NCBI GenBank assembly: GCA_030949555.1
Contig: JAUZSJ010000013.1
Coordinates: forward strand, 1-37,858
Reading direction: 5' to 3'
Length of the DNA stretch: 37,858 nucleotides
Source: Persephonella sp.
GTDB taxonomy: Bacteria > Aquificota > Aquificia > Aquificales > Hydrogenothermaceae
The notes under the pieces were generated by a model. The model made no database searches and was not told the DNA's origin. It saw only the letters and a program-made list of their open reading frames with translations. Shown here piece after piece: positions 1,655 to 17,117 of this stretch (positions within the stretch are counted from its first letter, which is position 1; the number at the start of each line of letters is the position of its first letter). The position numbers and the translations under genes are program-made.

Positions 1655-2838
1655 ATGGTTTTATTCCGTCTGTTTACTCTGTTTTTATTAATGTTCTCCA
1701 TCTCCAGAGGAGAAACTCTACAGGAAGTTTTAGATTATGCTCTAAAAAACAGCCCCCAGATAAAGGCAAAAATTTATGAAGCAAAGGAATCAGAAGGTGA
1801 GATAAAGTCCGCTGAAGCCTTCCCAAACCCTGAAGCTTACATCCAGTTTGGAAGACTGTACTCCCAGTCAGAAAGTGGTTTTAATCTTACAGAGCTTTCC
1901 ATCCACCAGCCACTGAAACTGTGGGGAACAAGAAAAAACGCTGTAGAAGAAGCACTGCTCAAAAGAGAGGCAGCCCGGCTGCAGCTCCAGTTTTACAGAA
2001 ACCAGATTGCAGGAAACATATATAAAAAATTTTATGAAACACTATACTCAAAACATCTACTACAGATAAATAAACAGAGTTACAACCTGTCAAAATCTGT
2101 ATATCAGCTGGTTAAAAAAAGTTATCAGCTTGGAGAGGAAACAAAGTTAAATCTGCTGAGAGCTGAAAAGGAACTGAAACTATCCCAGATTGAGCTGAAA
2201 CAGGCAGAAAACTTATACACAGCGAAACTGAAAGAGCTATCAGCTTTAGCAGGTAAAGACATAAAGGATGTAGAAGGCGATTTTTCAAAGCTGACAGACT
2301 TTAAAGACTTTTCCATCAGGGAACTGCCAGAGATTAGATATCTTGAAAAGATATCACAGTCTATTGACAGAGCCATACAGGTTCAGAAAGGACTGTCTAA
2401 GCCTCAGATAGGTGTTGAGTTCATAGCAGGTGAAGATGCTGCAGAGTTAGGAAAGTATGAGTTTGGTATAGGCTTAACAGCTACTGTTCCTGTTTTCTAC
2501 AGAAAACAGGGGGAGATAATAAAACTTATAAACAGAAAAAAAAGCATATTATCTGAAAAAAAGCAGAAAGAACTTATATACAGCTCAAAAATCCAGAACC
2601 TGAAGAGCAGATACTTTCTGCTGAAAAAACAGCTTATAGAGATAGACAGTCAAATTATTCCCTCAATGGAAGATGCTCTGAAGTTAGCTACAGAAAGCTA
2701 CAGAATGAGAGCAATAACCCTTTTGAACTTTCAGACATAAAAAGGCAGTACTTTGAGACATTTCTATATAGAGCATCCTTACTTAAGGAGATACACGACA
2801 TTACTGGAGAATACATAAAGATAGGAGGAATGAGATGA
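1655..2838 (+). CDS. TolC/CusC-family outer membrane efflux protein (frameshifted near 2720)
   Basis: Signal peptide, TolC-like 'ALKNSPQIKAKIYEAKESEGEIKSAEAFPNPEAYIQFGR'; SD aggagg upstream. Homology resumes in another frame (FELSDIKRQYFETFLYRASLLKEIHDITGEYIKIGGMR*) after a T-run. Confidence 0.85.
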
Positions 2839-3925
2839 AAAAGTTTATAACAGTTCTGACAGTTATCCTGATAAGCATAAATGCATTTGCAGGGGGGAGG
2901 ACATGGACACGACGAACATTTGGATGAAGAGTTTGTTCTTACTGAAGATGTTGTAAAAAAGCTTGGAATAAAGTGGGAAACAGTAAAAGAAAGGGAAGTA
3001 TTTATCAAGAAAAAATATCCTGCAGTAGTAAAGGATGACCTGACTCTGTCTGAAGCTATCTACTCGCCTGTTGAAGGAATTATAAAAAAGCTGTTAGTTA
3101 AAGAAGGAGATCCTGTTAAAAAGGGGCAGAGAGTTGCTCTCATATACTCACCAGAGATAAAAAAAACTGATTGCCCAGATTAAGCTTACACAGGTTCAGG
3201 TAAAAAATCTGAAAGCTATATATGAAAGGGAGAAAAAACTCTACCAGTCAGAAATTATTCCATACGGAAGATACTTTCAGGCAAAAGTAAACTACGAAAA
3301 TGCGAAAGGTAAACTTGAGGCTCTCACAGAATCCCTGAAAGCTTATGGAGAAATAGATGGACATCTACTGGTATTAAAGTCAGACATAGATGGATATGTT
3401 GCAAAACAGAACGTAGTATTGGGAGACAGTGTAGACATCAACAAACTGATTTTCAGGATACATTCCCACGAGAAACTGTGGGTAGTTGCGATGGTTCCTG
3501 TTAAAGATACAAAATTCTTCAGTAAAGGATTAAAAGTGGAGGTAATATCCCCACTGGGAAAAACGAAAGGCACTGTAGATTTTATCAGCCACAAAGTAGA
3601 CCCTGAGACAAAAAGGAATGATGTCAGAATCATAGGAGACAACAGCAATGATACATTAAAACCTAACATGTTCGTTGACGTTCTTATAAAAAGCAAAAAA
3701 ATAAAAGGCATCTTCATCCCTGAAAGCTCTGTGGTTATAAAAGACAACAGCCATTTTGTTTTTGTAAAAAAAGGAGAGCATGTGGAACCTGTAGAGGTGT
3801 TTTTGGGAGAAAAGATAGATGGATACTACAGAGTTATAGAGGGAGTAAAAACTGGAGACCAGATAATCATCAAAGGGGTGTCCTTCCTCAAAAGCCGATT
3901 CCTTGCAGAAACTGAAGGACACTGA
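2835..3925 (+). CDS. HME efflux periplasmic adaptor (membrane fusion) protein with His-rich N-terminus (two frameshifts)
   Basis: Fragments 2881-3183 and 3419-3925 carry MFP signatures ('YSPVEGIIKKLLVKEGDPVKKGQRVALIYSPE'). Breaks fall at the G6 run (~2891) and the A8 run (~3163). Confidence 0.85.
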
Positions 3926-3933
3926 GGAGGTCA

Positions 3934-6900
3934 GTGATGATAGCAGGAATCTTGCAGTATAGATTATTAGTAATCTTTGCCCTTATAGGAATTCTTTCTT
4001 ATGGATACTACTCTTTCAAAACCATACCTGTTGATACATTTCCTGACCCTACGCCACTACAGGTAAACATATACACAGAAGCACCTGGATACTCTGCCGA
4101 AGAGGTTGAGGCACTTATCACAAAAAGAATTGAAACAGTCATGTCAGGTATAAAGGATGTTGAGATGGTAAGGAGCACATCTATACCGGGACTGTCATAC
4201 GTTGCCATATTCTTCAAAGACGGAACTGACATTTATTTTGACAGAAGACTCGTTATGGAAAAACTGCCAGAAGCCCAGAGTCAACTACCAGAAGGCATTG
4301 TTCCAATAATGGGTCCAAACACCTCTGGTCTTGGTAATGTGCTTATTTATGCCCTTATATCTGACAATCCTGAATACTCTCTTACAGACCTGAAAGCCAT
4401 TCAGGAATGGCTTATCAAACCTATACTGAAATCAGTTGATGGGGTGGAAGATATATCCCAGTGGGGTCCAGAAAAAGCATTCCTGATAAAACCATATCCT
4501 GAGAAACTGCTGAAATACAACATAACATTAGAAGACATATTTGAGGCTGTTGAGAAAAACGGCGGTCTGGCAGGAGGAGGATACACAAAAACACCAGAAG
4601 GAGACCTTGTTATCAGAACTGTTGCCAGCATAACCGACATAAAACAGATAGGTCAGATACCTGTAAAGGTGGAGCATGGAACAGTCGTAAGAATAAAAGA
4701 TGTAGCAGATGTTGAAGAAGGAGAAATTCCCCAGAGAAGAGGAGCTTTCACACTAAACGGTAACGAGGTTCAGGGAAATATCGTCCTTAAAAGGATTCAC
4801 ACAAACACAAAAGAGCTCATACAGAAGCTAAAGGCTGAGATAGACAGAATCAACTCAGAAGTTCTACCTGACGGAGTGAAAATTCATATCTTATATGACC
4901 AGTCCTACCTGACAGACAAAGCATTATCCACAATAGAAAAAGCCCTCTTAGAAGGAATAATACTTGTCTCTATCGCCATGATGATATATCTGTGGAATGT
5001 GAGGGCTGCCCTTTTAGTCATACTCTCTATACCCTTTACCCTATTAATCGCTTTTGGTGTTATGAAGAATTTAGGCCTTACAGCAGACCTTATGTCCCTT
5101 GGGGGACTTGCCATTGGACTTGGTCTGTTTGCAGATGCAACAGTTGTTGTAATTGAAAACATATTCAGACATATAAGCCATCACAGAGAAAAATACAAAG
5201 ATAAAAATTTCCGACTGGAAATTATAAAACTGTCTGTTCAGGAAATAACAAAACCTGTGTTCTTTGCAATTCTTATAATAATGGTTGTCTTTCTACCTAT
5301 TTTTAGTTTTGAAGGAGTTGAAGGAAAATACTTCAAACCACTTGCCCTCACGATTATCGTTGCCTTAGGTGCATCCCTGCTGGTAGCTTTCGCATTTATG
5401 CCTGTTCTTGCATACTTCGGGCTAAAGCCTGGCAGTGAGAAAAGTCTGGTTATGGACTTCATAGAAAAGGTATATCTGAAGATACTGAAAAGTGCTATGA
5501 GAATAGGCCTGGTTCTATTTCTTGGAACAGCAATTTTATTCGGAGGCTCAATATACCTCCTCACAAAAATAGGAACAGAGTTTACACCAGAGCTTGATGA
5601 AGGAGCTGTCCTGTTAGAGGTTTTCCTTGATACAAACATATCGAGAGAAGAAGCTAAAAAGTTAGCAAACATTATAGAAGAAAGGGCAAAATCCTTTGAT
5701 GTTGTAACAAATGCTTTTTCAACAGTAGGAAGGGCAGAAAAGGGAGAGGTTACAGATGTTTCTTACTTTGAAACATGGATACTACTGAAGCCTTATAACC
5801 AGTGGAAGGAACTTAAAACAAGAAAAGAGTTTGAGCAGGCACTGAGAGAAAAACTGAAAGACCTTCCTGTTGCAGGTCTTGTATTTACACAGCCTATAGC
5901 AATGAGAATAGAGGAACTACTTTCTGGTGTAAGGGCAACAGTAGCAGTAAAAGTATTTGGAGAAGACCTGAAAAAGATTAATGAGATAGCAATGAAGGTT
6001 GAGGATGTTGCGAAAGGTATAAAAGGAGCTGTTGACGTAGAAACAGAAATTCAGTCAGGAAGACTTCAGCTCCAGATAATTCCAGACTACGAAAAACTGT
6101 ACAGATATGGATATACTGTAGAAAGACTGTTAGATTTAGCTGGTAAATTTATGGCTGGGACAGAGGCAAACGAACTTAGGAAGGGACTTATCAGTTTTCC
6201 TGTCATAGTAAAACTTCCAGAAGAGACAATGGATAGCATAGAAAAGATAAAAAATATCCCCCTTCTGAAAAAAGAAGATGGAACAATACTCAGACTTCAG
6301 GATGTCGCACAGGTAAAGATAGTTCCGGGATTTTCAAAAATAAGGCATGAAAATGGACTCAGATATGCCCTCGTCCAGATGAACATTGAAGACAGAGATT
6401 TAGGTGGATTTATAAAAGAGTTAAGGGAAAAAATAGAGCAGAACATTTCTCTTCCAGAAGGATACTTTATTAAATTTGCAGGACAGTTTGAAAATCAGGA
6501 AAGGGCTATGAAAAAACTTTCCATCATAGTTCCTATTGCTATACTGCTGATATTTGTACTCCTTTACCTGAACTATAATACTGTAAGAGATGCCTTTATA
6601 ATCATGCTAAATGTGCCATTTGCAACTATAGGGGGAATTCTCTCCTTGTATATATCAGGATTTAACCTCTCTGTTCCAGCTGCAATAGGATTTATTGCAG
6701 TATTTGGTATAGCAACCCTTAATGGTGTTGTTCTGGTTTCATACATAAGACAGATGTTAGACGAAGGATTCAGTATAGAAGAATCTATAAATAAAGCTGC
6801 AAGACTGAGACTAAGGCCTATACTGATAACAGCTACAGCAGCTTCTCTTGGTCTTGTACCTATACTGTTTACCCAGGACATAGGGTCAGAGATACAGAAA

Positions 6901-7005
6901 CCTATTGCAGTGGTCGTAATAGGAGGAATATTCACATCAACATTTTTAACGCTGATACTTCTGCCTGTAGTCTATAAGTTTGTCTATAAACTGAGAAGAG
7001 CTTGA
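3934..7005 (+). CDS. CusA/CzcA-family heavy-metal RND efflux pump
   Basis: 1023 aa, intact; RND N-terminus 'LVIFALIGILSYGYYSFKTIPVDTFPDPTPLQVNIYTEAPGYSAEEVE', TM4 motif 'GLGLFADATVVVIENIFRH'. Confidence 0.95.
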   Translation: MMIAGILQYRLLVIFALIGILSYGYYSFKTIPVDTFPDPTPLQVNIYTEAPGYSAEEVEALITKRIETVMSGIKDVEMVRSTSIPGLSYVAIFFKDGTDIYFDRRLVMEKLPEAQSQLPEGIVPIMGPNTSGLGNVLIYALISDNPEYSLTDLKAIQEWLIKPILKSVDGVEDISQWGPEKAFLIKPYPEKLLKYNITLEDIFEAVEKNGGLAGGGYTKTPEGDLVIRTVASITDIKQIGQIPVKVEHGTVVRIKDVADVEEGEIPQRRGAFTLNGNEVQGNIVLKRIHTNTKELIQKLKAEIDRINSEVLPDGVKIHILYDQSYLTDKALSTIEKALLEGIILVSIAMMIYLWNVRAALLVILSIPFTLLIAFGVMKNLGLTADLMSLGGLAIGLGLFADATVVVIENIFRHISHHREKYKDKNFRLEIIKLSVQEITKPVFFAILIIMVVFLPIFSFEGVEGKYFKPLALTIIVALGASLLVAFAFMPVLAYFGLKPGSEKSLVMDFIEKVYLKILKSAMRIGLVLFLGTAILFGGSIYLLTKIGTEFTPELDEGAVLLEVFLDTNISREEAKKLANIIEERAKSFDVVTNAFSTVGRAEKGEVTDVSYFETWILLKPYNQWKELKTRKEFEQALREKLKDLPVAGLVFTQPIAMRIEELLSGVRATVAVKVFGEDLKKINEIAMKVEDVAKGIKGAVDVETEIQSGRLQLQIIPDYEKLYRYGYTVERLLDLAGKFMAGTEANELRKGLISFPVIVKLPEETMDSIEKIKNIPLLKKEDGTILRLQDVAQVKIVPGFSKIRHENGLRYALVQMNIEDRDLGGFIKELREKIEQNISLPEGYFIKFAGQFENQERAMKKLSIIVPIAILLIFVLLYLNYNTVRDAFIIMLNVPFATIGGILSLYISGFNLSVPAAIGFIAVFGIATLNGVVLVSYIRQMLDEGFSIEESINKAARLRLRPILITATAASLGLVPILFTQDIGSEIQKPIAVVVIGGIFTSTFLTLILLPVVYKFVYKLRRA

Positions 7006-7581: not shown

Positions 7582-7830
7582 AGAAGCCGTTTCAAAAGGT
7601 TTAGGATTTGGTCTTACTTATGCTGTGAACTGCGTTGAGAACTCTTATAAGTCCTGATGCAGTACCGAGCCTCCAAAACTGTAACTACTGGTGGAGTATC
7701 AGCAATAGATACAATAGATGCATCTTCAGATGCACTGGAAATACACATATCAGATAAAATCACAGAAGAAAACCAATCACAAACATATATAGATAAAGCA
7801 ACAATAAGCACATTTTTATAGCAATAACAG

Positions 7831-7859
7831 AGCACTGTCTCCATAGCAAGAACAGTGCT
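7831..7859. repeat. Inverted repeat agcactgt-N13-acagtgct in the intergenic region upstream of the PqqD gene
   Basis: Perfect 8-bp arms; no protein-coding explanation for 7582-7932. Confidence 0.5.
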
Positions 7860-7932
7860 GATAGTAATACACTTTACAGGTAAGTTTATAAATAGTATTA
7901 TTTAGTTATATTACAATAACAAAGGGGATGGA

Positions 7933-8169
7933 ATGGACAGAATAAAACAGCTTGCTATAAACGATGAAGGTTTTGTTTTTGACCCATTAACTGGAGATAG
8001 TTTTACCGTAAACCAGACAGGGCTTTTTATACTGAAAAAACTAAAGGAAGGAAAAACTGAAGAAGAAATACTGCAGGAAATCACCGGAGAGTTTGAAGTA
8101 TCACAGGAAGAAGCAGAGAGGGATTTAATTGATTTTATAGAGAAACTGAGAAGTTACAGGCTCATTTAG
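7933..8169 (+). CDS. PqqD-like (RiPP recognition element family) small protein
   Basis: 78 aa 'FVFDPLTGDSFTVNQTGLFILKKLKEGKTEEEILQEITGEFEVSQEEAERDLIDFIEKLRSYRLI' matches the PqqD pattern; SD gggg upstream. Confidence 0.8.
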   Translation: MDRIKQLAINDEGFVFDPLTGDSFTVNQTGLFILKKLKEGKTEEEILQEITGEFEVSQEEAERDLIDFIEKLRSYRLI

Positions 8170-8178
8170 GAGTAAAAG

Positions 8179-9219
8179 ATGGAGATTAAGATAGCTGTTT
8201 CAGGAATTAATGCTGTTGACAACCCTGGTCCAGGTATAGGCGTCGCAAAAAGCCTATTGGAAGCTGAAGATTTTTCAGCTGAAATAGTAGGACTTGCATA
8301 TGACGCTATGGAACCTGGTATATATATGGACTGGATAGTCAAAAAATCATTTATCATGCCATATCCTTCTGGTGGACATGATGCCTTTATAAACAGACTT
8401 CTTTACATAAAAGAAAACTACGGAATGGATTTTTTTATGCCTGTTTTAGATGCAGAACTTCCTGTGGTTATAAAATACAGTCATGAACTTGAAAAAAACG
8501 GAATAAAAACATTTTTGCCCACCTACGAGCAGTTTAAACTGAGGTCAAAAGATAGATTAGAGGAAATAGCAAACAACATAGGTATTGAAATACCAAAATC
8601 AGAGGTGGTTACATCTTATGAAGAGTTAATCAAAGCAATAGAAAAAATAGGTCTTCCTGTTATGGTTAAAGGAGCATTTTATAAAGCTTACAGAGCATTC
8701 ACAACACAGGAAGCCGTCAGTTATTACAACAAAATTGTTGCCCAGTGGGGATACCCTATAATTGTTCAGCAGGTTGTTTCTGGAGAAGAGATGAATGTTG
8801 TAGCAGCTGGTGATGGGGAAGGAAGTTCCCTTGGAATGGTTGGAATAAAAAAGGTATGGATAACGGAACTTGGGAAAATATGGACAGGAATCACCATAAA
8901 AAATGAGAAGATGCTCAGTGCATCCCAGAAATTTATTGAAAAGTACAGCTGGAAAGGGGCATTCGAACTTGAATGTATAGTTGATACAAAAGAGAGCAGA
9001 GTATATCTGATTGAGATTAATCCACGTTTTCCTGCATGGTCTTACTTTTCTACAGGCGTTGGAGTAAACATAGCTGCCAATATAATAAGAAAATCTTTCG
9101 GTATGCCTGTTAAAAATTATACAGACTATCCAGCAGGGAAATTATATGTAAGATTTACAGACGACCTTGTAACCGATATGGAAAGATTCCAGAAAATAAT
9201 AACCAGAGGTGAAAGCTGA
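8179..9219 (+). CDS. ATP-grasp domain ligase
   Basis: Carbamoyl-phosphate-synthase-like ATP-grasp pattern: 'LPVMVKGAFYKAYRAF', 'YPIIVQQVVSGEEMNVV', 'YLIEINPRFPAW'. Confidence 0.85.
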   Translation: MEIKIAVSGINAVDNPGPGIGVAKSLLEAEDFSAEIVGLAYDAMEPGIYMDWIVKKSFIMPYPSGGHDAFINRLLYIKENYGMDFFMPVLDAELPVVIKYSHELEKNGIKTFLPTYEQFKLRSKDRLEEIANNIGIEIPKSEVVTSYEELIKAIEKIGLPVMVKGAFYKAYRAFTTQEAVSYYNKIVAQWGYPIIVQQVVSGEEMNVVAAGDGEGSSLGMVGIKKVWITELGKIWTGITIKNEKMLSASQKFIEKYSWKGAFELECIVDTKESRVYLIEINPRFPAWSYFSTGVGVNIAANIIRKSFGMPVKNYTDYPAGKLYVRFTDDLVTDMERFQKIITRGES

Positions 9220-10571
9220 TGAAAAAAATTTATGAGAAACCTGTAATAACAAAACTGCAGACAGGCTTTATGAATAAATTTGGTTCTTCTCCCCTTTATG
9301 CCAGGAAAATTAGAAAAGATATAGATGGAGTGCCTATTTCAGAACTTGTGGAAAAATTTGGCTCTCCTTTATTTGTTATCTCAGAAAAAAAACTGAGGGA
9401 AAAGTTCAGACAGATATACAACGCCTTTTCTACAAGATATCCAAACGTCCAGTTTGGCTGGTCTTATAAGACCAACTATCTTAAAGCTGTATGTGCAGTT
9501 TTACATCAGGAAGGAGCTATAGCAGAAGTAGTATCAGCATTCGAATATGAAAAAGCAAGAAATTTAGGAATAGAAGGTAAAGAGATTATCTTTAATGGAC
9601 CTCACAAACCTGTGGAAATATTGGAGGTTGCAGCATCAGAAGGTGCAAAGATACATATAGACCATTTTGATGAAATCACAGATTTAGAAAAAATAGCAGA
9701 GAAGTTAGGAAAACAGATAAAGGTAGCCATAAGGATAAATATGGATACAGGAATTCATCCACAGTGGGACAGATTTGGGTTTAATCTGGAAACGGGACAG
9801 GCTTTAGATGCCGTAAAAAGAATAGCATCTGGAGGAAAATTAGTACTAAATGGTCTTCACTGTCACATAGGAACATTTATATTGGAACCGGAAGCTTACG
9901 GTAGAGAAGTTGAGAAAATGGTGAAATTTGCATACGAGGTAGAAGATAACTTTGGATTCAAGATTGAGTATTTAGATATTGGTGGAGGATTTCCTTCGAA
10001 AAACAGACTGAAAGGCACATACCTTCCCCCTGATGTGGCAGTCCCTCCAGTAGATGAGTATGCAGAAAAAATAACAGAAAGTCTGTATTCAAACCTGAGA
10101 CCAGGAGATTTTCCAAAACTCATTTTAGAAACAGGCAGAGCTATTGTTGATGAGGCTGAATATCTCATAACAACAGTATTTGCATCAAAAAGACTGCCAG
10201 ACGGTAGAAAAGCATACATAGCAGACGCAGGAGTTAATTTACTCTTTACAGCCTTCTGGTATAAATTCAACATAGAGATTGACAGAGAAGTTCAGGGTAG
10301 CAACGAACCTGCTGTAATATACGGACCTTTATGTATGAATATTGACATCATAGATGAAGGAACGATGCTCTCCCCCTTAGAAAGGGGAACAAGGCTGATT
10401 TTTTCACCTGTAGGTGCTTATAACAACACCCAGTGGATGCAGTTTATTGAATACAGACCAAATGTTGTAATGGTAATGGAAGACCAGACAGTAGAAGTTA
10501 TAAGGGAAAAGGAAAATCTGTCTGATATAGAAAAAAGAGAGAGACTTCCAGAAAGATTAAAAATAAAATAA
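9219..10571 (+). CDS. Fold-III PLP-dependent decarboxylase (diaminopimelate/ornithine-decarboxylase-like) with YxxP-bearing N-terminal extension
   Basis: 'FGWSYKTNYLKAVC' (PLP lysine), 'GLHCHIGTF', 'LDIGGGFP', 'LILETGRAIV', 'GPLCMNIDII'. Extra N-terminus MKKIYEKPVITKLQTGFMNKFG. Start overlaps the previous stop (TGATG). Confidence 0.9.
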   Translation: MKKIYEKPVITKLQTGFMNKFGSSPLYARKIRKDIDGVPISELVEKFGSPLFVISEKKLREKFRQIYNAFSTRYPNVQFGWSYKTNYLKAVCAVLHQEGAIAEVVSAFEYEKARNLGIEGKEIIFNGPHKPVEILEVAASEGAKIHIDHFDEITDLEKIAEKLGKQIKVAIRINMDTGIHPQWDRFGFNLETGQALDAVKRIASGGKLVLNGLHCHIGTFILEPEAYGREVEKMVKFAYEVEDNFGFKIEYLDIGGGFPSKNRLKGTYLPPDVAVPPVDEYAEKITESLYSNLRPGDFPKLILETGRAIVDEAEYLITTVFASKRLPDGRKAYIADAGVNLLFTAFWYKFNIEIDREVQGSNEPAVIYGPLCMNIDIIDEGTMLSPLERGTRLIFSPVGAYNNTQWMQFIEYRPNVVMVMEDQTVEVIREKENLSDIEKRERLPERLKIK

Positions 10572-10575
10572 ATTT

Positions 10576-12663
10576 ATGGGAAAGATAGTAAGAGAAATAA
10601 AGGCAGTTTTAAACAGCTACTCTGAAATCCTTTTTCTTGAAAGTTATGTAGCAGGATTTGTAATACTCCTGGTAACCTTTCTCAACCCCAACCTGGGGGG
10701 AGCAGGTATTATATCTATAATATCTGCATACCTGTTTGCAAGATTTTTAGGCATTGGAGAAACCTTTTTAAAAACAGGGTTCTACACATACAACTCTCTT
10801 CTTGTAGGTTTATCTATAGGATATCTGTTTAAATTGACACCATTAACAGTTTTTTTCGTAATTGCATCAAGTATCACCACACTGATTTTTTCTATTATGC
10901 TTTACAGTATTTTTTCCTACTACCTCAAAATCCCAATCCTCAGTCTGCCATTTGTTGTAATCAGTTCAACCATTTACCTTGCAGTATCAAACTATACAAA
11001 CCTTTTTGTAAATGCACTTTATCCCCATATTAATTTCTCGTTTTTAGAAAACTATATTCCGCTGTGGATTTCTGGGTTTTTAAAATCTCTGGGAACCATA
11101 ATGTTCCTGCCTGATGTTTTTGTGGGAATTGTATTTTCTGCAATTATATTTTTTGTGTCCCGTATTCTATTTATGCTCTCTGTGATTGGATATTATACAG
11201 GAACAATAACTGCTGCATTTTTAACAGGTTCTTATGATGTAGCATTTTCAGACATAAGTCATTTTAACTTTATACTGATTTCAATAGCTTTAGGGGGAAT
11301 ATTCCTTATCCCATCTGTAAAGTCTTACCTTATCGCAATAACAGGAGTAATCATATCAACCACAGTGCTGTCTGCAATAAAAACCTTCTGGTCCTTTTAC
11401 GGTATACCTGCCTTCACACTACCATTTAACTTTATCTCTCTAACGTTTATATATGTTTTAGGTGTTCTCGGATTTCCATATATGGCAAAGGTTATAAGGA
11501 AAACTCCAGAAGAAACGCTGGACTTTTATCTTACTAACATAAAAAGGTATAGGGGAAGCCACAACACTATTCATCTGCCATTTTCAGGTAAGTGGACTGT
11601 ATGGCAGGGATTTGATGGAAGATGGACCCACAAAGGAAACTGGAAGTATGCATACGATTTTGTTATAACAGATGAAAGTGGAAAAACTTACAGGAACGAA
11701 GGAAAACAGTTAACAGACTATTTCGCATATCGCAAACCAGTCCTGTCTCCAGTAAGAGGTAGAGTGGTGAAAGTTATATCAGACCTGCCTGATAATCCCA
11801 TTGGACAGGTAGACAGAGAAAACAACTGGGGAAATCTGATTATTATATACGACCAGCGAGGTTTTTTTGTTGAAATATCCCATCTATCTCAAAACTCTAT
11901 AAGGGTAAAAGAAGGTGACTGGGTGGAAGTGGGAACTTTTTTAGGACTTTGTGGGAACTCTGGATATTCTCCTCAGCCCCATATTCACATTCAGGTTCAA
12001 CCTTCTGCAGACATAGGTTCGTACACACTCCCATTTAGCTTCGTAAGCTACATCAGTCAGAACCGTTTCTTTTCAAACGACATTCCAAAAGAAGGAGAGG
12101 TTGTAGAACCTGTATTTCCTGATAAATCATTAGAAATAAAGATGACATTTATTTTAGATTACTCTTTTGAGTATGAAGTTATCAAAGGTAAAAGGAAAGA
12201 TAATTTATATCTAACTGTAAAAATGGCTCCTGATGGTACCTTCTATTTTGATTCAGGAAAAGGTCAGCTCTACTTTGGTAAGTACGAGGGAACATTTTAC
12301 TTCTACAGGATTGATGGGGAAGACCCTTATCTGAAACTGTTTTTCCTTGCCCTTCCCCGTATGCCCCTGTTTTACAGAGAAGGTATTGAATGGGAAGACT
12401 TTTTACCTGTTAAGATAGCCTCAGGAGAGATAAAAAAGTCTTTGATTCTTTTTCTCAGTTCATTCAATCATAACTTAGCTCAGATACATTACACAGGAAG
12501 GTTTGAAAAAGATATGAAAATATACGGAAGAATAACATCAAAAGCACTCAGCATAGATGAAGAACTGCAGGTAGAATTAGATGAAACAGTTGGCATAAAA
12601 AGTATAAAATTTAAGGACACACATATAAAACTCAAAAAGTTTATACACAGCAAGGAGGGCTGA
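10576..12663 (+). CDS. Urea-transporter-like membrane domain fused to a C-terminal M23/LytM-like domain
   Basis: N-terminal ~310 aa polytopic, UT-like ('AGFVILLVTFLNPNLGGAGIISIISAYLFARFLG', 'GFYTYNSLLVGLSIGYLF'). C-terminal half 'PVLSPVRGRVVKV...NNWGNLIIIYD...GDWVEVGTFLGLCGNSGYSPQPHIHIQVQ' is M23-like. Confidence 0.8.
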   Translation: MGKIVREIKAVLNSYSEILFLESYVAGFVILLVTFLNPNLGGAGIISIISAYLFARFLGIGETFLKTGFYTYNSLLVGLSIGYLFKLTPLTVFFVIASSITTLIFSIMLYSIFSYYLKIPILSLPFVVISSTIYLAVSNYTNLFVNALYPHINFSFLENYIPLWISGFLKSLGTIMFLPDVFVGIVFSAIIFFVSRILFMLSVIGYYTGTITAAFLTGSYDVAFSDISHFNFILISIALGGIFLIPSVKSYLIAITGVIISTTVLSAIKTFWSFYGIPAFTLPFNFISLTFIYVLGVLGFPYMAKVIRKTPEETLDFYLTNIKRYRGSHNTIHLPFSGKWTVWQGFDGRWTHKGNWKYAYDFVITDESGKTYRNEGKQLTDYFAYRKPVLSPVRGRVVKVISDLPDNPIGQVDRENNWGNLIIIYDQRGFFVEISHLSQNSIRVKEGDWVEVGTFLGLCGNSGYSPQPHIHIQVQPSADIGSYTLPFSFVSYISQNRFFSNDIPKEGEVVEPVFPDKSLEIKMTFILDYSFEYEVIKGKRKDNLYLTVKMAPDGTFYFDSGKGQLYFGKYEGTFYFYRIDGEDPYLKLFFLALPRMPLFYREGIEWEDFLPVKIASGEIKKSLILFLSSFNHNLAQIHYTGRFEKDMKIYGRITSKALSIDEELQVELDETVGIKSIKFKDTHIKLKKFIHSKEG

Positions 12664-12664
12664 A

Positions 12665-13588
12665 ATGAAAAGGTTTACAGCAGCAGTTTTAAGCTCTGCT
12701 TCAATAATTACAGTATCATATGCAAAAGATGTACTGATAAATACATCCTTTTACGGCAGTTATATGGATTATTCATCATCTGCCGTTAAAGATGATGGCT
12801 ACATAGGAGGTGTATATGGATATGCTGGCATAGGTCTGGAACATTCTGTAGAAGTAGAAATTGACTATACAAAAATAAATTACCCTCAGGCAGTGGAAGC
12901 TCTGAAGCAGTGGGATTTTACAGTTATGTACACTAACTACTCAGTAAGAAACACAAAAATAAGAATAGGTGGACACTACATAAATAGTGATGATTCTGCT
13001 ACTGATGGAGGTATTATCCTCACAGGTGGATACGAGTTTTACACCATAAGAAGTTACAGCTACGGTCTGGATATAGCCTTATCTTATTATGACAACTACA
13101 ACATAGAAAAAACATATATAAGAAGTCTGTACAGAGGTATGGGAAGAAGCCCTCTTTCTTACACTACAACTACAACAGGGTTGTGGGTATATCAGATTTC
13201 TCCTAAGTTGAGCTATTCATTCCCGGAAACAGCTGCAGGTGATGTATATTTAGAAACGAGAGGATATTACATAAGGACATCAGACGATGTTGGTTTTGGC
13301 AAAAACTTTTTTTCTGTTGAATGCAGCTTAAACCTCGATACAGGAATTTTTGAATTTAATCTTTACGGCTGGATTGGAGAGCAGGAATTTGCCGTCAAAA
13401 AGTACGGATTTGCAGTTTACAACCTGTCTGAGAAATACAAAAACGGCTTTGGTGCTTCCATAAAATATAAAATGTCTGAAAAATCTTCTGTAACTGTAGG
13501 TATCAAAAGGGAAACTTTTAGAGAGTTAGATAATCCTCGCGATGTGAAGATATCATCACTATATTTTCTTGCAGAGGTTAATTTCTGA
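12665..13588 (+). CDS. Probable outer-membrane beta-barrel protein
   Basis: Signal peptide (MKRFTAAVLSSASIITVSYAKD), alternating aromatic/polar strands, C-terminal Phe (AEVNF). Confidence 0.6.
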   Translation: MKRFTAAVLSSASIITVSYAKDVLINTSFYGSYMDYSSSAVKDDGYIGGVYGYAGIGLEHSVEVEIDYTKINYPQAVEALKQWDFTVMYTNYSVRNTKIRIGGHYINSDDSATDGGIILTGGYEFYTIRSYSYGLDIALSYYDNYNIEKTYIRSLYRGMGRSPLSYTTTTTGLWVYQISPKLSYSFPETAAGDVYLETRGYYIRTSDDVGFGKNFFSVECSLNLDTGIFEFNLYGWIGEQEFAVKKYGFAVYNLSEKYKNGFGASIKYKMSEKSSVTVGIKRETFRELDNPRDVKISSLYFLAEVNF

Positions 13589-14196
13589 TGAAAAGGCTGA
13601 TTCTTTTTATACTGATGCTGTTTATTACTGATTCCTATGCACTTGATTATCAGGATATTAAAATGTCGTATTACCGTTCCTATCAGTACGAAAAAACTGG
13701 AGATTACGAAAATGCCATAAAGGCTCTCGTATTTGTCTACAACGAATATCCAGATGGATATACAGTCAATCTCAGATTGGGATGGCTTTACTATCTTATG
13801 AAAAATTACGCAAACTCAGTATTTCACTACAAAAATGCTATAAAGTCTGCACCTTATTCTGTAGAGGCAAAGCTTTGGATACACACTTCCGCTACTTGCT
13901 CAGAAGAAATTTTCAGAAGTAGAAAAATATGCTACCAGATTTTAAATACAGATTTTTACAACTATTATGGCAATCTGAGACTGTCCTATGCTTTAAGAAT
14001 GGAAAAAAAGTATGAAACGGCAATTAAGATAGCACAGAAGATGCTTGCCCTATACCCAACAGATGTAAACTTTTTGATGGAACTGGCTCTGTCAAAGTTT
14101 GAATCTGGAAAAAAAGAAGAAGCCAAAAAGATATTTTTAGATGTGCTTATTTTAGACCCGGAAAATGTTACAGCAAAAGAGTACCTTAAACATTGA
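13588..14196 (+). CDS. TPR-repeat periplasmic protein
   Basis: Signal peptide; TPR-like repeats 'YEKTGDYENAIKALVFVYNEYPDGYTVNLRLGWLYYLMKNYANSVFHYKNAIKSAP'. Start overlaps the previous stop (TGATG). Confidence 0.75.
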   Translation: MKRLILFILMLFITDSYALDYQDIKMSYYRSYQYEKTGDYENAIKALVFVYNEYPDGYTVNLRLGWLYYLMKNYANSVFHYKNAIKSAPYSVEAKLWIHTSATCSEEIFRSRKICYQILNTDFYNYYGNLRLSYALRMEKKYETAIKIAQKMLALYPTDVNFLMELALSKFESGKKEEAKKIFLDVLILDPENVTAKEYLKH

Positions 14197-14543
14197 AATA
14201 TAACAAAAATCATAAATACCCCTACAGACAAAAATTAGATTTAAAAGGGAAGGTGGTGGTGGTTTTGAACAGAGTTATTATAGAAATTTTAGAGATGAAA
14301 GGCTGTCCAGAGTGTCATGTTATGAAAAAAGTACTAAATGATGCTCTGTCTGATATAGAGCATCTGAGAGATAAGATTGAAGTTGTTTTTTTAGACCTTT
14401 TTGAGGACAATAACCGTATAAATGAACTTGGGATGTATCGATGCCCGGCTCTTGCTATTAATGGAGTTATATATTTTATGGGAGAAATCCCAGGTAAAGA
14501 AGAACTGAAATCCATAATTATCTCAGAAATTGTGTCCCGTTAA
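14193..14543 (+). CDS. Thioredoxin/glutaredoxin-like protein (true start may be near 14262)
   Basis: 'IIEILEMKGCPECHVMKKVL' CxxC thioredoxin-fold motif, cis-Pro region 'CPALAINGVIYFMGEIP'. The ORF start is a TTG; a purine-rich stretch lies at 14245-14260. Confidence 0.65.
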   Translation: MKYNKNHKYPYRQKLDLKGKVVVVLNRVIIEILEMKGCPECHVMKKVLNDALSDIEHLRDKIEVVFLDLFEDNNRINELGMYRCPALAINGVIYFMGEIPGKEELKSIIISEIVSR

Positions 14544-15443: not shown

Positions 15444-16723
15444 ATGTTTAAAACTATTTTATCAGTCTTTCTGGTATTTTCTGTTGCTTATGCATACGAT
15501 ATAGACACTCTTTTAGATGAGGCTCTGCAAGAGGTTGAGAGGGAAAGCTCAGAGAGATATTACAGTCTTGCCCTGAAACTCTTTAACGAAGGGCTTTACA
15601 ACCAGGCTATAAAAAATGGGGAAATATTTTTAGAGAAAAACACTGCAGATATAAGAAAGTTAGATAATATAGTTTCTCCTTCTTGCTGTTTCCTACTTTC
15701 TGACAGAAAAAAAAGATAAACTATTTAATCTTTTTCTTCAGTATCACAGTTCAAGCATATCTGAGGATACAAAGAAAAAGCTGTTTATATACACAAACAA
15801 TCTGCTGATAAGAAAAGGAGACTTTAAAAGATTGAGGATTGTCAGAAAAAAGGGAAAAAGTATTGTGTCCTATAAAAGAGAGATTATAAAACTGTCTGGT
15901 GTTTTTTCCCGGTTTGAGCCTGGAGTAAATATATTCAGACTTCATATGGGAAATCTTATCGGCAAAAACAGTGTATTTTTTGCCCGTAAAAATCTTACAC
16001 TTATAGAAATTGCAAAAATACTTTGATATGGGATACGACGAGCTCAAGATTGCAAATCCCCACATGGACCCGTTTGATATCCAGAAAGGGGAAGCAGTTT
16101 TTGTGCCGAGGAAGAGGATACTTCCTGAAAAAGATTTTGAGTTTGGAACTATTTATATAAACCTTTCAGAAAAGAGGTTATACTATCCATTGATAATAGA
16201 TGGAGAGCCTTATGTTATAACATTTCCGGTAGGTATAGGAAGGGATAATGCAGAATCTCCTATAGGTGTGTTCAGAATTACTCAGAAAAAGGAAAATCCG
16301 TCGTGGGTTGTTCCAGATTCTATAAAGGAGGAAGACCCATCCCTTCCTCCAGTTGTTCCTCCAGGTCCGGATAATCCTCTTGGTGTCAGAGCTATGAGAC
16401 TGGGTAATACAGAGTATCTTCTCCATGGAACAAGCAAGAGGTTTGGTATAGGTATGAAGGTAAGTCATGGATGTATAAGAATGTACAACAGAGATGTTGT
16501 GAGACTGTTTGATGTTGTGAAAAAGGGAACAAAAGTTATTATAACTGAAAAAAATTACAAATTCTTTAAAGATAGTAGATTTTATTTAGAAATTTTTAAT
16601 TTTAAAACAGAAGATTTAAATAATGTTTCAAAAATGCTACTGGAAAAAGGTATAAAAATCTCCCCCAATCTTTTGATGTTCTACAGTAAAGAGAAAAGGG
16701 GATATGCTATCCCCCTACTGTAA
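15444..16723 (+). CDS. LysM-like / L,D-transpeptidase (YkuD) protein, two frameshifts
   Basis: Signal peptide at 15444; homology moves frames at ~15660-15720 and ~16015. YkuD motif 'LLHGTSKRFGIGMKVSHGCIRMYNRDV'. Confidence 0.85.
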
Positions 16724-16724
16724 A

Positions 16725-17117
16725 CTATTTTGCAAGTGATTTTCTCATAACCCTCTCAATATTGTCAGACAGCCTGTCCAGTTTTGCTTCTAAAGCATCT
16801 ACTCTATCTTTAAGACCTCTGATGGCTGCCGCATTCTTTTCAGCCTTTTCGTCCACTGCTTTAATCTGTTTTTTAATGTCAGCATGTTCTGCTTCTATAT
16901 TTCCTACTTTTGTTTCCAGGTCTGAAATTCTGCCGACAATTTTAGGGTGCTCTGTTTTGTGTATCTGCTCTATCTGGCTTATTTTACCTTCTAAGGCGTT
17001 CAGTTTTTCTAAAATCTTAGCATTCTGCTCGTCAACATATGACTTTGATGCACATCCTGTAAGGACAGCAGCAGAAACTCCTAAAACGACCGCACCTTTT
17101 AAAAATCTGCTTAACAT
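16725..17117 (-). CDS. Coiled-coil lipoprotein
   Basis: Lipobox 'AAVLTGC'; heptad-like 'LNALEGKISQIEQ...LEAKLDRLSDNIERV'; Lpp-like C-terminus. Confidence 0.7.
   Translation of the reverse strand: MLSRFLKGAVVLGVSAAVLTGCASKSYVDEQNAKILEKLNALEGKISQIEQIHKTEHPKIVGRISDLETKVGNIEAEHADIKKQIKAVDEKAEKNAAAIRGLKDRVDALEAKLDRLSDNIERVMRKSLAK

Follow-up and report, generated by a model that had tools for sequence, protein, structure and literature searches.

Ligase-decarboxylase pairs are known from the synthesis of rhizoferrin, where the decarboxylases FslC and FigC go with the synthetases FslA and FigA, and of butirosin, where BtrJ is reportedly the ATP-grasp ligase partner of the LysA-fold decarboxylase BtrK on the carrier BtrI. 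BtrK and the related decarboxylase MccE act on substrates that are carrier-bound or peptide-conjugated (PMC7857480). Separately, the discrete recognition elements (RREs) of ribosomally synthesized and post-translationally modified peptides (RiPPs), as found in lasso-peptide synthesis (the B1 proteins TfuB1/FusB1, TbiB1, and PbaB1, with a YxxP/WxxP leader), bind [Y/W]xxPx[L/V/I/F/A], an Asp holding the Tyr and an Asn fixing the kink at the Pro (PMC13381572). Here, we describe an operon that brings relatives of these proteins together in a 37,858-nucleotide stretch of DNA (hereafter the window, i.e., the whole stretch analysed), which is one contig (C13) of a 1.43-Mb draft Aquificota genome. Six adjoining genes, whose closest named relatives are from Persephonella, encode an RRE protein, an ATP-grasp ligase, a pyridoxal 5′-phosphate (PLP)-dependent decarboxylase, a urea transporter (UT)-M23 peptidase fusion, a predicted outer-membrane β-barrel protein (OMP), and an exported TPR protein (Table 1). 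Taking the evidence as a whole, we lean, if only slightly, towards an RRE-docked ligase-decarboxylase unit that would make an amide-capped amine for the envelope. To place the locus in context, an ATP-grasp alignment search of genome contigs yielded 530 confirmed relatives, from which 80 loci were retrieved.

The component folds are known, while the six-gene system as a whole appears to be new. The initial annotation (made from the sequence alone) recognized no named pathway of this composition, and the nearest named families indeed each fail a defining feature; the genes are strongly co-conserved. With the lasso-peptide system, the operon shares the RRE family, the Asn and Asp contact positions, and a [Y/W]xxPx[L/I] ligand motif including its Tyr/Trp alternation, but the motif sits on the decarboxylase rather than on a precursor peptide, and neither a B2 leader protease nor an asparagine-synthetase-like macrolactam cyclase was found among the six proteins scanned or the broadly recurrent neighbors. 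More generally, an RRE is common to the operon and to RiPP clusters (lasso or graspetide), but no recurrent short precursor open reading frame (ORF) was found near the 80 loci. FslC and FigC offer the nearest solved decarboxylase, the ligase-decarboxylase pairing, and a Met in the Cys loop, whereas the operon has an ATP-grasp enzyme in place of the synthetase for nonribosomal-peptide-synthetase-independent siderophores, Ile375 in place of FigC His357, an N-terminal tag, and ~30 percent identity. The butirosin system likewise joins an ATP-grasp ligase to a LysA-fold decarboxylase acting on a conjugated amino acid (for BtrK, PMC7857480), but BtrK is only a distant homologue, and the operon has an RRE instead of an acyl-carrier protein. 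The UT domain resembles the bacterial urea transporters dvUT and Yut, each of its halves having the conserved N and PF motifs, but differs in its Gln24 and Glu187 positions and its fused M23 peptidase, and does not reach the cut-off of the Yut equivalog (100.9 against 274.6 bits). Finally, the RRE passes the PqqD-like model of the HPr-rel-A system (TIGR04353; 41.3 against a cut-off of 35), but no HprK-related kinase was seen among the core proteins or in the recurrent neighbor clusters inspected. In the open full-text literature, the part that was searched, no description was found that unites a PqqD protein with an ATP-grasp enzyme, a decarboxylase, a urea transporter, and an M23 peptidase.

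The decarboxylase tail and the RRE protein

The decarboxylase starts with a tail, MKKIYEKPVITKLQTGFMNKFG, that precedes the region alignable to LysA and FigC and in which Y5 and P8 are invariant and N19, K20, and G22 near-invariant across 34 diverse homologues. Among 135 distinct decarboxylase N-termini, 132 carry the motif [Y/W]xxPx[LIVFAM], against none of 18 genuine LysA N-termini and 7% of random 56-residue stretches (six motif-bearing entries in the LysA control set proved to be truncated operon decarboxylases and were not counted among the 18). The tag-less N-termini comprise one truncated locus and two further cases: locus L137, in which the tag Tyr is replaced by Leu and RRE Asp64 by Ser, and genome G908, in which the aligned region lacks the motif and no RRE was found genome-wide, four related genomes being positive. 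Tags of a Pseudomonadota subfamily read WxKPxL or WEPPxI, with RRE position 64 being Ala, Gly, or Ser in the WEPP group and Asp in the WxKP group, and five distant Planctomycetota loci (L227, L230, L246, L247, and L250) have lost NKFG and retained both YxxPx[L/I] and the RRE. These natural variants point the same way, but the Tyr/Asp covariation among them is not significant (see below). In a predicted model of the window decarboxylase, the core is confident and the first 30 residues are disordered (predicted local distance difference test [pLDDT] scores of 41-47), as expected of a docking tag.

The RRE protein itself matched TfuB1 (6jx3, 2.5e-11) and TbiB1 (5v1u, 1.4e-9) best among PDB profiles, and all 30 family members examined matched the lasso_PqqD model. 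Its N27 (8011-8013) and D64 (8122-8124) fall at the positions of the Pro-fixing Asn and the Tyr-binding Asp, an equivalence that we assigned by their spacing along the last helix and strand. The initial annotation had called this a peptide-recognition-type protein; the family holds, as the lasso-type profiles confirm, but no separate peptide recurs, and the ligand motif is on the decarboxylase. Because the recurrent [Y/W]xxPx[I/L] ligand sits on the decarboxylase itself, the RRE probably serves enzyme docking, and we consider physical contact between the two proteins quite probable, the RRE binding the tag on the disordered tail much as lasso-peptide B1 proteins bind a leader. In a Pseudomonadota subfamily, a TetR-like protein carries the RRE as its C-terminal domain (L231:4974-5792, L232:4085-4885), hinting that the same complex may also act in regulation.

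The decarboxylase core, the envelope proteins, and a proposed pathway

By its profile scores, the operon decarboxylase is distinct from LysA: it reached 224.7 bits against the LysA equivalog model (cut-off, 297.9) and 218 bits against the FslC model (cut-off, 500), and scored below the SpeA and DokD cut-offs as well. A separate LysA-like gene (~30% identity) was present in all Aquificota genomes tested, with or without the operon, and most of the distant operon hosts tested likewise carry one; close relatives differ in having the operon, and all of them retain LysA. The nearest PDB relative, which is also the top fold match, is N-citrylornithine decarboxylase (7kh2, 5.7e-80). The PLP-binding Lys84 and catalytic Cys372 are invariant across diverse homologues, and the Cys loop reads CMNID in 33 of 34 decarboxylases, compared with CESSD in the 1twi alignment and CMQHD in FigC, with Met, as in FigC, replacing the Glu of the CES motif of LysA, a motif that touches the distal end of diaminopimelate. 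With Met instead of an acidic residue, the substrate may not end distally in a free amine, while Ile375, at the position of FigC His357 (near citrate), argues against citrate as a likely substrate moiety.

For the envelope half, the zinc and catalytic residues of the M23 domain (H352, D361, H436, H469, and H471) are invariant in all 24 homologues compared. In the UT domain, the positions of dvUT Gln24 and Glu187, which we take to be the pore and selectivity residues of the urea channel, are mostly Glu and Ala/Thr, and because these pore residues differ, urea is an unlikely substrate for the fusion. The OMP had no Pfam match; 34 of 35 homologues terminate in F, W, or Y, as outer-membrane barrels usually do. 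Selenocysteine in the UT-M23 fusion was considered and rejected, as the single TGA flagged within a match (G205, G260) is the terminal stop.

In the pathway that we propose, the RRE would bring the tagged decarboxylase to the ligase, so that the three proteins form a cytoplasmic complex; the ligase would couple a carboxylate to an amino acid's amine group, and subsequent loss of the conjugate's carboxylate to the decarboxylase would yield an amide-capped amine, which the putative UT channel domain, M23, OMP, and TPR proteins would move or use in the envelope. Ligation followed by decarboxylation of the conjugate is offered tentatively, and an envelope destination for the product seems to us evenly poised. 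The amine product and the link to the envelope that had been suggested from the sequence thus remain plausible, while the peptide-recognition role needs revision, given a ligand motif on the decarboxylase and no recurrent precursor. The small-molecule channel that had been read in the UT domain is at most putative here, since its pore residues depart from those of the urea channel and M23 may lie on either side of the membrane.

Counter-evidence and rival explanations

Several observations weigh against this proposal. Tag Tyr and RRE Asp64 did not covary significantly, the tree showing only 2 and 3 changes, one Trp-tag clade retains RRE Asp64, and the NKFG block is conserved beyond the needs of docking alone. 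UT proteins have both termini on the cytoplasmic side, and in the fusion no further transmembrane helix precedes M23, whose flanks are positively charged; UT homology and these flanks would put the M23 domain in the cytoplasm, which fits an envelope role poorly. A cytoplasmic site is unusual for M23 peptidases. Further, AlphaFold2 was run on a construct from locus L098, in which RRE, ligase, and the first 40 decarboxylase residues lie naturally in frame (each stop read as Gly); both domains folded and the tag was left unplaced (pLDDT 30-47). As 13 N-terminal residues of the RRE are missing from this chain and the ligase-tag linker is only 3 residues, the test is weak, but it lends docking no support.

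That single prediction also suits an account in which a small molecule is made without RRE docking; the tail would then touch either some other partner or the dimer of the decarboxylase, and its likeness to the RRE motif would be coincidence or relic. Tails this long can pack on a dimer partner, where a monomer prediction would not see them, and RRE-like winged helices resemble DNA-binding domains, with one subfamily's RRE fused, as noted, to a TetR-like domain. We regard this account as unlikely, however, given the contrast between 132/135 tails and 0/18 LysA N-termini over a 7 percent background, the survival of YxxP alone where the rest of the tail diverges, and the joint absence of RRE and tag in G908.

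Also improbable, in our judgment, is that the tail is itself the substrate, presented by the RRE, modified or loaded at NKFG by the ATP-grasp enzyme, and acted on in cis by the decarboxylase, which would make one protein precursor, carrier, and enzyme. The near-invariance of N19, K20, and G22 in a disordered tail directly after a leader-type motif would fit this; graspetide ATP-grasp enzymes do modify leader-bound peptides, and carrier-bound or peptide-conjugated substrates have precedent in BtrK and MccE (PMC7857480). But the distant Planctomycetota subfamily, without NKFG, still retains the RRE and YxxPx[L/I], NKFG is also missing from the sequences L102 and L104, and no leader protease was recognised, unless the M23 domain serves as one.

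RREs and ATP-grasp enzymes are often paired in RiPP clusters and short precursors are difficult to call, such that the RRE might serve a conventional ribosomal peptide, its short precursor gene having been overlooked. This is very unlikely: of 2285 short ORFs near the 80 loci, 50 bear the motif, no more than background, with no recurrent family among them and truncated decarboxylases as the sole tag-like cases, and gene-neighborhood comparison found no family beyond the six broadly conserved alongside. Lastly, a place for decarboxylase and ligase in primary lysine or polyamine synthesis, an outcome that the initial annotation had itself raised, has the LysA/ODC-like (ornithine decarboxylase-like) fold and family in its favor but is scarcely credible beside scores under all four cut-offs, a co-resident LysA, an operon that comes and goes among close relatives that all retain LysA, and CMN where LysA has CES.

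Organization, distribution, and meaning of the operon

The six core ORFs are all intact, lie on the plus strand, and are packed tightly over 7933-14196, with TGATG at the junctions 9217-9221 and 13586-13590 and gaps of 4 bp (10572-10575) and 1 bp (12664), in agreement with the gene order and near-zero spacing read at the outset. The domain calls made then (PqqD, ATP-grasp, decarboxylase, UT plus M23, and TPR) were each found by Pfam, and that of the OMP is backed by its termini.

Table 1 Core genes of the operon and their subregions, with positions in the window
Feature	Position	Strand	Length	Evidence or remarks
RRE (PqqD-family)	7933-8169	+	78 aa	Pfam PqqD 1.4e-16
ATP-grasp ligase (carbamoyl-phosphate-synthase-like, PRK12767-like)	8179-9219	+	346 aa	CPSase_L_D2 4e-9; fold match 2pn1
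PLP-dependent decarboxylase (alanine-racemase fold, LysA/FigC-like)	9219-10571	+	450 aa	Pfam Orn_Arg_deC_N 3e-35, C-terminal domain 5e-11
Decarboxylase N-terminal leader-like tail MKKIYEKPVITKLQTGFMNKFG	9219-9284	+		YEKPVI at 9231-9248; NKFG at 9273-9284
UT-M23 fusion	10576-12663	+	695 aa	Pfam UT 1e-60, Peptidase_M23 7e-11
UT-M23 subregions	UT ~10597-11457; M23 ~11593-12015	+		then unnamed C-terminal region
Predicted OMP	12665-13588	+	307 aa	signal-like N-terminus, C-terminal F
Exported TPR protein	13588-14196	+	202 aa	TPR_2 1.2e-15; signal-like N-terminus

The complete order RRE-ligase-decarboxylase-UT/M23-OMP-TPR was found in 32 of the 80 loci, contig ends interrupting most of the others, and the TPR gene in 48, contig ends again interrupting many. 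The decarboxylase tree covers 16 phyla, and since the same gene order recurs among loci from 16 phyla, the six-gene set is not a chance association; on this comparative record, we read it as a single conserved functional unit. Several label changes are required for Aquificota on the tree, which suggests that the operon may have moved between phyla. Prevalence is patchy (Aquificota 43/121, Verrucomicrobiota 2/146, Planctomycetota 12/200, 10/198 genomes of the Thermodesulfatator phylum, and, in a wider set, Pseudomonadota 38/299), and hosts include named isolates, e.g., Thermodesulfobacterium hydrogeniphilum and Thermodesulfatator autotrophicus. In the 121 Aquificota genomes, ligase and UT-M23 occurred together in 41, ligase only in 2, UT-M23 only in 1, and neither in 77 (Fisher p ~1e-28, uncorrected for relatedness), and the three genomes in which one occurs without the other are bins 71-85% complete. 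The genes also co-occur when unlinked: in G028, those for ligase, decarboxylase, and UT-M23 are spread over three contigs, in G213 those for ligase and UT-M23 are ~197 kb apart, and the genes are apart in G021 too. A lack of co-conservation elsewhere, which had been named as grounds for doubting the operon, was thus not what we found. In G026, ligase and decarboxylase are both broken.

No homologue of the operon was found in the viral contigs and plasmids searched, and an anti-phage defence system was considered and rejected, none of the six proteins matching PADLOC models. Twelve loci from several phyla (e.g., L054, L100, and L104) have a sigma-54 response regulator and a sensor kinase next to the operon, and two loci of one genome (L212 and L214; G602) have two diverged tandem ATP-grasp copies between RRE and decarboxylase. 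One contig titled as a Klebsiella pneumoniae metagenome-assembled genome (L078) falls within Verrucomicrobiota on the tree, and its label is probably wrong. Within the window, a thioredoxin-like gene (14193-14543) overlaps the TPR gene, was found only in the nearest Persephonella, and is outside the core set. Upstream lies a CusCBA/resistance-nodulation-division-type efflux operon (1655-7005), whose CusB-like gene (3419-3925) is without its N-terminal half, possibly through a frameshift or assembly break; the 350 bp 5′ of the operon (7582-7932) hold no convincing gene or repeat. Downstream, a YkuD L,D-transpeptidase gene (+) adjoins a small coiled-coil lipoprotein-like gene (-) at 16010-17117.

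Together, these efforts define a six-gene pathway that occurs in at least 16 bacterial phyla and whose hosts include named isolates, and the docking reading predicts its key residues, i.e., Y5 and P8 of the decarboxylase and N27 and D64 of the RRE. We think it reasonably likely that an RRE has here been taken over from RiPP synthesis to dock enzymes, reading a leader-type tag on a decarboxylase and assembling a ligase-decarboxylase complex that would make an envelope-linked amine in many phyla. If true, RREs, by which genomes are mined for peptide natural products, would also guide enzyme-enzyme docking, and some precursor-less RRE matches would represent a different use of the fold rather than missed RiPPs.

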